From the NCBI RefSeq assembly GCF_003010915.2, contig NZ_CP028427.1, positions 1-37,013 of the forward strand: 37,013 nt of DNA. The letters run 5' to 3'. Position 1 is the first letter of the stretch, and every line of letters begins with the position of its first letter. Source of the DNA: Gulosibacter molinativorax (lineage in GTDB: Bacteria; Actinomycetota; Actinomycetes; Actinomycetales; Microbacteriaceae). Made by a program: the position numbers and the translations under genes. This document shows positions 11,154-14,833 of this stretch, one piece after another. The notes below the pieces were generated by a model, which did no database searches, had not been told where the DNA came from, and saw only the letters and a list, made by a program, of their open reading frames with translations.

Positions 11154-11318
11154 CGTTTTTTACCTTGAAGCCTGGCGGCATTCTACGTTCGCTCAACCTC
11201 CGCGCAAGTGCTTTCGCGGCATATCCTCGCTCGCTGCGCTCGCTCCGGTATTCCACGGTCACTTGCACTCCGGCGTCGCTCTCTGCGAAAGGCGTAAACG
11301 CCTTCAAGGCAAAAAACG
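11154..11318 (+). repeat. Structured leader element, copy 1 (R1)
   Basis: Its outer arms are CGTTTTTTACCTTGAAG (11154-11170) and CTTCAAGGCAAAAAACG (11302-11318). Its inner stem is GCAAGTG (11204-11210) with CACTTGC (11260-11266), and its 3' hairpin is GGCGT-AA-ACGCC (11291-11302). A T-A pair in the outer stem (11165/11307) replaces the G-C pair of the other copies. TTACCT, 18 nt, TACGTT (11184-11189) is the promoter-like pair. The next gene starts 15 nt after the element, behind a purine-rich GAGAGGGAGAGAGA. Confidence 0.75.
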
Positions 11319-11333
11319 AGAGGGAGAGAGAAC

Positions 11334-11624
11334 ATGGCTACCACCTACATCTGCAAGAGCTGCGCCGGACTGGCACCCGTTGGGATCGGCTACGCAGCGA
11401 AGGGCACCGACGCCGAGGCGAAGCAGTGCGCCGAGCGGATCGCGTGCGAATGCGGCCAGAGCCGCACCGCGAACGCCTGGGCCGTGCTCAACTGCCCATG
11501 CACCCAGATTCTCGGCCTGTACTCGACCGAGGAAGCAGCGACAGCGGCCGCCGAATGGTTCGGCTCGTGCAGCTTCGCCTACCGGCTCAGCGACGCCGAG
11601 CGCGACCGCCTCATCGCCGCCTAA
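11334..11624 (+). CDS. Small Cys-rich protein, possible zinc ribbon
   Basis: The 96-residue protein carries Cys pairs CKSC (7-10), C32, CEC (38-40) and CPC (54-56) plus one more near residue 79, enough to bind zinc or another metal. The C-terminal third looks helical. I do not recognise the family. It is the first gene of the accessory region, preceded by structured element R1 and a purine-rich ribosome-binding stretch, and is followed by a 9-nt repeat array and a second small gene in the same transcript. Confidence 0.6.
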   Translation: MATTYICKSCAGLAPVGIGYAAKGTDAEAKQCAERIACECGQSRTANAWAVLNCPCTQILGLYSTEEAATAAAEWFGSCSFAYRLSDAERDRLIAA

Positions 11625-11625
11625 A

Positions 11626-11652
11626 TAGACCTATAAGTCCCATAAGACCTAG
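11626..11652. repeat. 9-nt repeat array, junction 1
   Basis: Three consecutive 9-nt units follow the stop codon after one base: TAGACCTAT, AAGTCCCAT, AAGACCTAG. The next gene's ribosome-binding stretch (GAGAAAGG) follows immediately. Confidence 0.65.
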
Positions 11653-11666
11653 AGAAAGGCCAGACC

Positions 11667-12077
11667 ATGACCAGCAACCGCGCAATCCCGTTTGACCTCG
11701 CCCACATCGCGGGAGCCGATGAGTTCCACCAGGCGACCGCCGAGCAGTTCCGCCAGGCAATCGGCCCCGGCGTGCTCATGTCACTGGGGGCGACCCGGCT
11801 TACCGCCGTACCCGGCCGATTCGACCGCGGCGGCCTCATGTTCACCGCCCGCATCCTGCCCTTCACCCGAACCGGCGACCGATACGCGGCCGCTCGCAAC
11901 ATGGCCGTGCTCATCAGCACGACCCCGCTCGATGAAATCGACGTTGAGGTACGCGAGTACGCCCGCGGCATCGAGCACGCGAAGATCGAAGGCGTCTACA
12001 TCGACCAGCTCGCCCGCGCCGTGCTCGCGCTCGACTACGACGGCCCCGAGCCGCTGAACCCTCGCTACTGGCAATGA
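11667..12077 (+). CDS. Hypothetical protein, 136 aa
   Basis: This is a soluble, mixed alpha/beta-looking protein with no membrane segment or Cys motif; I do not recognise it. The middle (about residues 38-65) has alternating hydrophobic residues typical of strands and the C-terminal half a likely helix. The start follows GAGAAAGGCC. It is the last gene of the first accessory transcript: a UUCG-capped terminator lies 8 nt after its stop. Confidence 0.6.
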   Translation: MTSNRAIPFDLAHIAGADEFHQATAEQFRQAIGPGVLMSLGATRLTAVPGRFDRGGLMFTARILPFTRTGDRYAAARNMAVLISTTPLDEIDVEVREYARGIEHAKIEGVYIDQLARAVLALDYDGPEPLNPRYWQ

Positions 12078-12085
12078 CCGCCGCA

Positions 12086-12109
12086 GCCCGCCGCCTTCGG
12101 GCGGCGGGC
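12086..12109 (+). terminator. TTCG-loop terminator hairpin
   Basis: GCCCGCCGCC and GGCGGCGGGC form a perfect 10-bp stem closed by a TTCG tetraloop, 8 nt past the stop of the preceding gene. The remaining bases up to R2 (12110-12221) contain several further GC palindromes, e.g. GGGGCTGCGCCCC, and no gene. Confidence 0.7.
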
Positions 12110-12147
12110 GAAGGGGCTGCGCCCCCTCGCCGCTCCCCCGCCCGGTC

Positions 12148-12206
12148 GCATCCGCGACCGGGGCCGCCGACAGAGGGCGGCCATGCGTCGGCCGCTGCGC
12201 GGCCGC
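12148..12206. repeat. 59-bp direct repeat, copy A
   Basis: This block is repeated with one mismatch at 14588-14646. It contains GGCCGCC/GGCGGCC arms around GACAGAG and a palindromic GGCCGCTGCGCGGCC. In both places it lies just upstream of a structured leader element (R2, R4). Confidence 0.7.
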
Positions 12207-12221
12207 CCATCCTTGAGCTAT

Positions 12222-12388
12222 CGCATTTTCTTGCCGTGAAGCCTTCGGCAGCATACGTTCGCTCCACCGACGCGCAAGTGCTTTCGCGGCATATCCTCAC
12301 TCGCTGCGCTCGCTCCGGTATTCCACGGTCACTTGCACGTCGGCTCCGCTTTCTGCGCGGCACATTCGTGCCTTCACGGCAAAAAACG
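12222..12388 (+). repeat. Structured leader element, copy 2 (R2)
   Basis: Its outer arms centre on TTGCCGTGAAG (12231-12241) and CTTCACGGCAA (12372-12382). Its inner stem GCAAGTG (12274-12280)/CACTTGC (12330-12336) is extended here by CCGACG/CGTCGG across one mismatch. Its 3' hairpin is GGCAC-ATTC-GTGCC (12359-12372). The promoter-like pair TTGCCG, 17 nt, TACGTT (12254-12259) is present. The antirestriction gene starts 38 nt after the element. Confidence 0.75.
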
Positions 12389-12426
12389 TGAGGGGTAGTT
12401 GGTAGTCAGAGACACCGGAGGAAATC

Positions 12427-13627: not shown

Positions 13628-13644
13628 AGAGGGAGAGAGACACC

Positions 13645-13854
13645 ATGCAGAGCATCGCCACCATCACGACCATCGTTCCCATCGTGGATGACACCGAGAT
13701 TCCGCGGCAGCTTCGCAAGCTCGCAGAGCGCGACGAAGACCTGATGAGCTACGCCCGCAGCGGCTACACGCTCGCAAGCACGGTCGCGATCACCGGCCCC
13801 GAGTTCGTGACGTTCGTGGACACACTGACACGCGATCCCGAAACCATCCACTAA
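13645..13854 (+). CDS. Hypothetical small protein, 69 aa
   Basis: This is a short acidic protein with hydrophobic strands near each end and a charged helix in the middle (about 20-36); I do not recognise it. The start at 13645 is chosen because it follows the same purine-rich GAGAGGGAGAGAGA stretch that precedes the gene after R1. A longer frame from 13573 would run through the structured element. It is first in a small transcript with the next two genes. Confidence 0.5.
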   Translation: MQSIATITTIVPIVDDTEIPRQLRKLAERDEDLMSYARSGYTLASTVAITGPEFVTFVDTLTRDPETIH

Positions 13855-13872
13855 TAGACCCATTAGACCTAT
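13855..13872. repeat. 9-nt repeat array, junction 3
   Basis: TAGACCCAT and TAGACCTAT follow the stop codon directly. AGGAGAT then serves as ribosome-binding site of the next gene. Confidence 0.6.
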
Positions 13873-13885
13873 AGGAGATACACCG

Positions 13886-14248
13886 ATGAGTACCAAAGTT
13901 CCCGAGATTGGCACCCGCGTTATGGGCCTGCTCAACCTGGGCGGCCGCGGCACCTGCCTCAGCTTCGCCACCGTCACCGGCCACCGGCGCGAGGAAGGAT
14001 CGCGCACCGTCGTCGCTATCGAGGTCGAGCACGACGGCGGAGAGCTGGACAGCTACCGCATGAACACCTACCCCGACTTCTGGGAGCTGGTCACAGATCA
14101 CCGAGTGAGCGGAGCCGACGTGCAACCCGTTCGCGGGCAAGGTTGGCAAGCACGCTTCGGCCAAGCGCCCGTGCGAGCGACACACGCCGAGGCCGTCGAA
14201 GACGCGCGCGCCTGGTGGGCAGAGAAGGCCGCACCGCGCAAGCCCTAG
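13886..14248 (+). CDS. Hypothetical protein, 120 aa
   Basis: The protein looks rich in beta-strands in its first ~65 residues (GTRVMGLLNLGGRGTCLSF and TVVAIEVEHDG), followed by an amphipathic helix near the C-terminus (about 100-112). I do not recognise a family; the small beta-rich front could be an SH3-like or OB-like fold. The start follows ATAGGAGATACACC. A promoter inside the next 9-nt array follows its stop. Confidence 0.55.
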   Translation: MSTKVPEIGTRVMGLLNLGGRGTCLSFATVTGHRREEGSRTVVAIEVEHDGGELDSYRMNTYPDFWELVTDHRVSGADVQPVRGQGWQARFGQAPVRATHAEAVEDARAWWAEKAAPRKP

Positions 14249-14300
14249 ACACCAATAGGCCTATTAGGTACAATAGACCTATAAACCCCATAATCCCCAA
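14246..14300 (+). promoter_or_regulatory. 9-nt repeat array, junction 4, with embedded promoter
   Basis: Five 9-nt units run from 14256: TAGGCCTAT, TAGGTACAA, TAGACCTAT, AAACCCCAT, AATCCCCAA. TAGACA (14246-14251) and TACAAT (14269-14274), 17 nt apart, make a good promoter for the gene at 14318. Its -35 box starts on the stop codon of the previous gene. The last four units recur almost unchanged at junction 6. Confidence 0.65.
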
Positions 14301-14317
14301 CCTGGAAGGTAGACACC

Positions 14318-14521
14318 ATGACCATCACCGCCGAGCACCTGACCATCACCCTCGAAGACGGGCGCGAGCTGACCGGCCGAATGCCGGTCGAGCTGGCGCA
14401 CAAGTGGGCCGAGGCCGAGCACGGCGACGAGTGGCAGCAGCTCAGCCCCGCAAAGCAGAGCATCGAAATCACCGCTGCGCTCGATGCCCTCAATCGCGCA
14501 GCGCAGGAACACCAAGGGTGA
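14318..14521 (+). CDS. Hypothetical small protein, 67 aa
   Basis: The protein begins with two short strands (HLTITLEDGRELTG) and continues with an amphipathic helical second half (about 25-63); it is acidic and soluble. I do not recognise the family. GGAAGGTAG upstream supports the ATG. It probably has its own promoter within the 9-nt array and ends at a terminator beginning 10 nt after its stop. Confidence 0.5.
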   Translation: MTITAEHLTITLEDGRELTGRMPVELAHKWAEAEHGDEWQQLSPAKQSIEITAALDALNRAAQEHQG

Positions 14522-14530
14522 GTGCCCGCC

Positions 14531-14580
14531 GCCCGCGGCCGTTCGGCCGCGGGCACCAGGCGGCAGCGCCGGGGCGCTGC
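14531..14580 (+). terminator. Terminator hairpins before R4
   Basis: GCCCGCGGCCG/CGGCCGCGGGC (14531-14554, TT loop) is followed by GCAGCGCC/GGCGCTGC (14563-14580). The first is a likely terminator. The arrangement copies those at 12086 and 13367. Confidence 0.65.
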
Positions 14581-14587
14581 ACCGGCC

Positions 14588-14646
14588 GCATCCGCGACCG
14601 GTGCCGCCGACAGAGGGCGGCCATGCGTCGGCCGCTGCGCGGCCGC
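14588..14646. repeat. 59-bp direct repeat, copy B
   Basis: Second copy of the block at 12148-12206; one base differs (T for G after GCGACCGG). Confidence 0.7.
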
Positions 14647-14659
14647 ACATCTTTCAATT

Positions 14660-14833
14660 CGTATTTTGCCGTGAAGCCTGCGGCATTCTACGTTCGCTCC
14701 ACCTACACGCAAGTGCTTTCGCGGCATATCCTCGCGTCTCTCGCTGGCGCTCGGCCGCTCCGGTATTCCACGGTCACTTGCCCTCCGGCTGCGCTCGCTA
14801 CGAAGGCACATGGTGCCTTCACGGCAAAAAACG
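14660..14833 (+). repeat. Structured leader element, copy 4 (R4)
   Basis: Its outer arms are TTGCCGTGAAG (14666-14676) and CTTCACGGCAA (14817-14827). Its inner stem is GCAAGTG (14709-14715)/CACTTGC (14775-14781), and its 3' hairpin is GGCAC-ATG-GTGCC (14805-14817). The centre of the loop differs from the other copies and is longer, while both loop edges (CTTTCGCGGCATATCC and CCGGTATTCCACGGT) are kept. The promoter-like TTGCCG, 17 nt, TACGTT (14689-14694) is present. The redoxin gene begins 50 nt after the element. Confidence 0.75.

Follow-up and report, generated by a model that had tools for sequence, protein, structure and literature searches.

Four copies of a conserved fold-back element, predicted to act as single-stranded-DNA promoters, on a putative conjugative plasmid of Gulosibacter molinativorax

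The locus and its four elements

The window analysed here is the whole 37,013-base contig C2 (NZ_CP028427.1) of the two-contig, 3.5-Mb genome of Gulosibacter molinativorax, and it carries four structured elements, R1–R4, which are predicted to act as promoters in single-stranded DNA. The window looks like a conjugative plasmid, because type IV secretion system (T4SS)-type genes, a MobA/VirD2-type relaxase and a coupling protein were found in it. Positions of the elements, their parts and the surrounding features are collected in Table 1. The start codons that follow lie 15 to 50 nt beyond the elements.

A 159-base query from R3 matched the two-contig genome only at 11158-11318, 12231-12388, 13469-13627 and 14664-14833, and the four elements of the original prediction, which had been made from the letters alone, are present where it had placed them. 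Its description of them also stood. The inner stem reads GCAAGTG/CACTTGC in R1, R2 and R4 and GCAACCC/GGGTTGC in R3, with three pairs altered on both sides; the loop edges CTTTCGCGGCATATCC and CCGGTATTCCACGGT are the same in all four; the 3' hairpin is GGCGTAAACGCC in R1 and R3, GGCACATTCGTGCC in R2 and GGCACATGGTGCC in R4; and one outer pair is T-A in R1 and G-C in the others. The outer stem of R1 has in addition an A.C mismatch on the plus strand, corresponding to a G.T wobble on the minus strand, and this was absent from that description.

Further repeats were observed around the elements. A 73-nt stretch upstream of R2 (12142-12214) is 95% identical to one upstream of R4 (14582-14654), and GGCCGC hairpins precede all four, so that the conserved unit may extend further. 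Short motifs of the ATAGACCYATAAG type, with a spacing of about 9 bp, recur intergenically at 11622-16400.

Table 1. Features of the window and element copies on plasmids F and ColIb-P9; for the elements and predicted promoters, the strand is the one inferred to fold
Feature	Position	Strand	Parts and evidence
Open reading frame (ORF) of 754 aa, upstream of R1	8664-10928		Weak matches to archaeo-eukaryotic primase families, under curated cut-offs
R1 element	11154-11318	-	Outer arms 11159-11170 and 11303-11318; inner stem 11204-11210/11260-11266; core 11211-11226 and 11245-11259; model match on minus strand, E 1.4e-22
R1 predicted promoter	11180-11207	-	-35-like TTGCGC 11207-11202; 16 nt; -10-like TAGAAT 11185-11180
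Two ORFs after R1	11334-11624, 11667-12077	+	Function unknown; no Pfam match at E 0.01
R2 element	12222-12388	-	Inner stem 12274-12280/12330-12336; core 12281-12296 and 12315-12329; E 8.3e-22
R2 predicted promoter		-	-35 TTGCGC 12277-12272; 16 nt; -10 TATGCT 12255-12250
ArdC-like gene after R2 (ArdcN and Peptidase_M78)	12427-13335	+	PF08401, E 4.1e-13
R3 element	13464-13627	-	Inner stem 13514-13520/13570-13576; core 13521-13536 and 13555-13569; E 1.7e-21
R3 predicted promoter		-	-35 TTGCGC 13517-13512; 16 nt; -10 TAGACT 13495-13490
Three small ORFs after R3	13645-13854, 13886-14248, 14318-14521	+	Function unknown; no Pfam match at E 0.01
R4 element	14660-14833	-	Inner stem 14709-14715/14775-14781; core 14716-14731 and 14760-14774; E 4.8e-17
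R4 predicted promoter		-	-35 TTGCGT 14712-14707; 16 nt; -10 TAGAAT 14690-14685
Glutaredoxin, 63-aa ORF, SNase and SSB genes after R4	14884-16323	+
Tandem repeat, period 3,013 bp	18379-28858		First three copies agree with the first at 3,012 of 3,013 positions, then a partial copy; encodes an integrase-core (rve) transposase and an amidohydrolase
Inverted repeat	31116-31248		52-nt arms, 73% complementary; stem TCAAGGG/CCCTTGA; core absent
Relaxase, MobA/VirD2-like	32361-34082	+	PF03432, E 1.5e-31; used for inferring the leading side
Coupling protein	34902-36656	+
Element copy in F	53,994-54,076 (L169 3995-4077)		Within an annotated hypothetical ORF, upstream of a DNA methylase gene
Element copy in ColIb-P9	L171 23707-23789		Upstream of a DNA methylase gene

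The inverted repeat of Table 1 precedes a small plus-strand ORF near 31284, close to the relaxase gene, and possibly represents a second class of fold-back promoter. The nic-like heptamer ATCCTGC was matched nine times in the window (mean expectation 6.06), with none of the matches in 31740-32012.

Conservation of the fold

Four copies alone are insufficient to prove a selected fold, and the proof is supplied by their relatives. A covariance model was made from a 78-element alignment and run over 100 sources, giving 127 matches, 123 of them distinct (window copies included). In the alignment of these 123, which was fitted to the model structure and is hence biased towards it, both sides of a pair had changed in 404 cells against 125.8 in shuffles, and the covariation score was 0.350 against 0.104, a value reached by none of 500 shuffles. 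With partners or structures slid out of register, the score was at most 0.071. All eight inner-stem pairs covary, and the core helix is hardly variable. Pairs changed on both sides at least once were no more numerous than in the shuffles (14 against 13.3).

A count free of the model was made on 105 elements, left from 171 extracted instances once short-flanked, N-containing and ≥80%-alike ones had been dropped. Watson-Crick pairs filled 732 of 840 inner-stem cells, a mean of 6.97 of 8 per element compared to 4.51 with swapped partners, the offset being picked identically for both. The claim that the fold itself is selected is thus statistically strong on both measures. The original prediction had suggested building a model from the copies and searching with it, and had named a lack of further copies, of significant covariation or of conserved stems as grounds for giving the claim up; these points were examined, and further copies were found on plasmids, chromosomal contigs and phages, with significant covariation and with the stems kept.

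Distribution across plasmids, chromosomes and phages

In Actinomycetota, Pseudomonadota and Bacillota, the covariance model detected the element on plasmids, on phages and on chromosomal contigs. Blastn returned 283 plasmid records with 241 bases around R3 and 257 with an 86-base core piece; by organism name, the carriers belong to actinobacterial genera, Burkholderia, Pseudomonas, Escherichia, Vibrio, Arsenophonus, Jannaschia and Geobacillus. Twenty of the plasmid records found in this way were checked by annotation and model. The best annotated plasmid relative is a Glutamicibacter nicotianae plasmid with five element copies and a similar gene order. The model also recognised two copies in NAH7 and, at E 1.8e-16, a single copy in F and another in ColIb-P9; R46 gave no significant match and R388 none. 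A 191-base piece containing the F copy matched 3,412 of 5,426 complete Escherichia coli genomes, at 5,119 plasmid places and 54 chromosomal ones.

A two-part exact pattern was found in at least 118 stretches of genome_contigs, the matches listed including Actinomycetota, alpha-, beta- and gammaproteobacteria, Bacilli and Clostridia, as well as one Desulfovibrio and one Bacteroidia metagenome-assembled genome contig for which contamination is possible. The core is invariant at these loci by the way they were selected, while stems and flanks were not constrained in this manner. The model search of 396 genomes of the phylum recovered the own genome only; since just 12 candidates per genome, out of thousands, were scored in its first pass, the result gives no frequency estimate.

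Among viral sequences, the 16-base half CTTTCGCGGCATATCC was matched in 35 IMG/VR contigs, and in 27 of them CGGTATTCCAC, which was not part of the query, follows intact; none of the eight contigs where it is not intact gave a significant model match. A first search of phage collections yielded one weak microvirus match that was later confirmed by the model, and a second, with an inovirus element as query, contributed nothing beyond 26-base matches in Pseudomonas phages. The element is also present on phage contigs that have portal or replication-initiation genes (L009, L012 and L029), which extends the carriers beyond plasmids and inoviruses.

The predicted folded strand and its promoter-like signals

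Departures from Watson-Crick pairing differ between the strands. In the inner stems of the 105 elements, 47 are C.A on the plus strand, equal to G.T on the minus strand, as against 9 that are G.T on the plus strand (swapped-partner control, 1457 and 1159), and the core helix likewise has C.A on the plus and G.T on the minus strand. The asymmetry was 45 versus 9 in a set of 103 lineages and 15 versus 6 (p 0.078) in one of 56. With DNA folding parameters, the minus strand is the more stable in 92 of 105 elements and in all four of the window, the difference in R3 being just 0.5 kcal/mol. Judging from the wobble asymmetry and the folding energy, selection for the fold thus seems to act on the complement of the mRNA strand.

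The 3' arm of this minus strand carries TTGAC or TTGC within the inner stem, followed by a peak of the sigma70-like -10 motif TANNNT at offsets 24-26 past the core (10, 18 and 15 of 105 elements; per-position shuffle maximum 7). At offsets 23-28 the motif was found in 53 of 103 elements, compared to 3 of 103 on the other arm, which is TANNNT-poor overall (29 in total, 55 expected); the arm-to-arm comparison gave the same 53 versus 3 in the 103-lineage set and 20 versus 3 (p 1e-4) in that of 56. A weight-matrix score over 36 lineages gave p 0.093 against the other arm and p 5e-4 against positions 10 nt further on. In the 53 elements with a -10, mean predicted pairing to the template arm was 0.34 for the -10 and 0.72 for the -35. 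The consensus on the minus strand of the window is a -35-like TTGCG[CT] in the inner stem, 16 nt, and a -10-like TA[GT][AG][AC]T.

Orientation towards neighbouring genes

The 20 checked plasmid records contain 26 elements, of which 23 have their next annotated gene running as predicted, the Geobacillus gene following only after 1.1 kb. This agreement is supporting rather than decisive, because such genes are mostly co-directional anyway.

A relaxase was present in 12 of 13 plasmids examined, NZ_CP059854 having neither the PF03432-type nor the TrwC-type, and was encoded on the element's strand in 11 of the 12: the present plasmid, pTZC1, Geobacillus pLDW-2 (with a hit under the curated cut-off), a Jannaschia plasmid, Burkholderia glumae bglu_4p, Pseudomonas aeruginosa pCCBH28525_KPC, Burkholderia cenocepacia pBCJ2315, F, ColIb-P9, NAH7 and, for its F-like copy, E. 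coli pWS3294A_97. A second copy in the last of these stands upstream of a MobV relaxase gene instead. Relaxase genes are typically located in the lagging region, as stated in part of PMC11541004.

In Zot-bearing phage contigs the orientation is reversed. Zot was identified in 12 of 34 IMG/VR records searched, and all 11 informative ones, which fall by eye into about five families, have the element running antisense to the nearest Zot, so that the strand predicted to fold would be the gene-sense, virion strand; in the remaining record Zot is about 74 kb away. It is also antisense to the replication-initiation protein gene in L009 and L029 and to the rolling-circle initiator gene in L016. A site acting on the single-stranded form requires just such a flip between plasmids and inoviruses.

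Interpretation and alternatives

We consider R1–R4 to be, with a probability of about 70%, single-stranded-DNA promoters, the folded minus strand being the one predicted to enter the recipient. In conjugation this strand would fold back, and host RNA polymerase would transcribe the plus-strand genes off it ahead of second-strand synthesis. The 3' arm would serve as the non-template strand, with the -35 read as duplex within the inner stem. The -10 would sit in the stretch separating the two stems, and extrusion of the small 3' hairpin from the template arm may help to hold it open. Transcription would proceed outward via the outer stem into the ArdC-like, glutaredoxin, SSB and unknown genes, until synthesis of the second strand destroyed the fold and so switched the promoter off. 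The same RNA could also prime the second strand. Filamentous phages have the element antisense to their genes, and there its role would be to prime the complementary strand on virion DNA. If this is true, the anti-restriction-type gene and its neighbours are likely to be switched on at once in the recipient, and anti-defence proteins would be made before the plasmid DNA is double-stranded.

Several results weigh against this interpretation. Over 36 deep lineages, neither the wobble asymmetry (9 versus 4, p 0.27) nor the arm-to-arm -10 comparison (9 versus 3, p 0.11) is significant. Only 59 of 103 elements have TTG[AC] in the inner stem, the F copy lacks TANNNT at offsets 23-28, and the spacer (0.375) and the downstream part (0.376) are predicted to pair as little as the -10. 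The best predicted fold extrudes the 3' hairpin clearly in R1 only, and the weak prediction in R2–R4 lowers overall confidence slightly. For two plasmid elements (L047 and L050) and for the copy at 9770 in NAH7, the next gene does not run as predicted, and the element of Pseudarthrobacter pASPHE302 is opposite its relaxase. In the Microviridae genome L178 (4021-4103) the element is in gene sense, contrary to the prediction for the virion strand, and this microvirus is a real exception.

The same folded strand might instead be a single-strand initiation site only (ssi- or sso-like), at which the transferred or virion strand recruits RNA polymerase, DnaG or a PriA primosome for priming, with any expression of the next gene a by-product. 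Its antisense position in Zot contigs, in tailed phages with a replication initiator and in a small contig with a rolling-circle initiator would suit such a site, as would a core that is stricter than the -35 and -10. We regard it as unlikely, since four copies within 3.7 kb, each directly before a gene set, the sense orientation of the next gene for 23 of 26 plasmid elements and the fixed position of the -10 all speak against it. The original prediction had presented the elements as leaders, and a cis-acting RNA leader in the plus-strand mRNA (riboswitch, attenuator or translation control) would agree with their site directly upstream of start codons and with a plus strand that folds too. The strand evidence speaks against this reading, leaving it very little probability: G.T pairs are kept on the minus and not on the plus strand, the minus strand folds better and bears the -10 motif, and the element is antisense to Zot in all informative phage contigs. 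Single-stranded DNA, which had been named alongside RNA, is the right lead.

An ordinary minus-strand duplex promoter (TTGCGC-16-TAGAAT) with a palindromic operator is equally improbable. The hexamers and their spacing fit it just as well, but it would point into the 3' ends of plus-strand genes in the window, where no minus-strand gene was recognised (minus-strand ORFs were not searched against Pfam), and an operator leaves the conserved mismatched core and the wobble asymmetry unexplained. Hairpins with invariant loops are typical of sites recognised or nicked by relaxases, Rep proteins or Xer-type recombinases on folded single strands. For the present element, however, such a role is hardly credible: no single cognate enzyme fits, because the carriers encode differing enzymes (PF03432-type or TrwC-type relaxases, phage Rep or Zot, and neither relaxase family in NZ_CP059854), and the copies precede gene sets.

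Beyond the window, the single-stranded-DNA promoter may be one ancient, near-universal promoter and primer site with a core that the host reads and that is preserved nearly to the letter across phyla, used by conjugative plasmids, integrated elements and single-stranded-DNA or rolling-circle phages, each carrier orienting it so that the strand becoming single-stranded is the template; we consider the chances of this broader proposal to be even. A cross-phylum covariance model would help to show which genes are expressed first in recipients and to predict the leading region and transferred strand, and it would make the reader of the invariant internal loop testable.

Comparison with known systems

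The closest functional likeness is to Frpo1/Frpo2 of F and ssi of ColIb-P9. These are repeats in the leading region, where the present elements are predicted to lie as well, ahead of operons with anti-restriction and SSB genes, in which the template strand of the genes folds and the fold assembles a -35 and a -10. The folded strand of the present element is likewise the template of the downstream genes by wobble pairs, energy and -10, more weakly so in deep lineages. The present family differs in spanning phyla and phages. Judged by position and identity, Frpo2 and Frpo1 should be the two repeats that F has at about 58.4 kb and about 63.8 kb, respectively. The F copy of the present family is a site of its own, with some 4.4 kb between it and the nearer repeat. 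The model, run with filters off on F 57.9-64.2 kb, detected no homology to Frpo1/Frpo2 (best 7.9 bits, E 0.6), by which membership in Frpo by sequence is ruled out. Near Frpo2 (L169 8460-8560), the plus strand has strings similar to parts of the core, but with order and strand changed, through common origin or chance.

In the M13-type complementary-strand origins of filamentous phages and in the sso sites of rolling-circle plasmids, RNA polymerase is likewise assumed to read a folded single strand, in keeping with the position antisense to Zot, whereas the present element also precedes plasmid genes. CUP elements of the IncN plasmids R46/pKM101, which lie in a leading region, resemble it as repeats upstream of anti-restriction operons, and are described, in part of PMC5371602, as promoters with ArdK-binding sites; the model gave no significant match in R46 22-31.8 kb (best 11.4 bits, E 0.079; the repeats score 5.4), and membership is ruled out. 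EGeRS1 of the pLS20 family is a further case of repeated regulatory sequences before establishment operons, on a Gram-positive plasmid, but there the transferred strand is the non-template, and a single-strand promoter is deemed highly unlikely in the relevant section of PMC8708921.

Experimental background comes from enterobacterial plasmids. Frpo1/Frpo2 of F drive early transient expression, and deleting either abolishes early expression of the downstream genes (passages of PMC9849209). In pESBL, inversion of oriT abolishes protection by the plasmid methyltransferase, and a single-strand promoter is placed upstream of the methyltransferase gene (passages of PMC7736820); this promoter may be the present element. 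The single-stranded promoters described in the sections of the literature consulted are Frpo/ssi of enterobacterial plasmids, extended by BLAST, and the Nature 2024 study, in the section concerned, states no significant Frpo similarity for its Streptococcus island (PMC11541004).

No Rfam family matched the window at gathering scores, and six relatives gave two weak, unrelated hits only. Among open-access papers containing a core fragment, none is by its title about such an element; the older ssi literature (eleven ssi sites of F, R6K, R100 and ColE2) was outside this scope, and the F copy may therefore have been cloned earlier as an ssi. As far as tested, the statement that no described family has this form holds. 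A Klebsiella CRISPR spacer has 13 core letters and then differs. The best explanation of the sequence data is that the element works like Frpo/ssi while being unrelated in sequence to Frpo1/2, and a cross-phylum family acting in this way would, as far as tested, be new. If true, Gram-positive elements would have gained their first promoter of this kind, and one overlooked in F, in ColIb-P9 and in plasmids of most E. coli.

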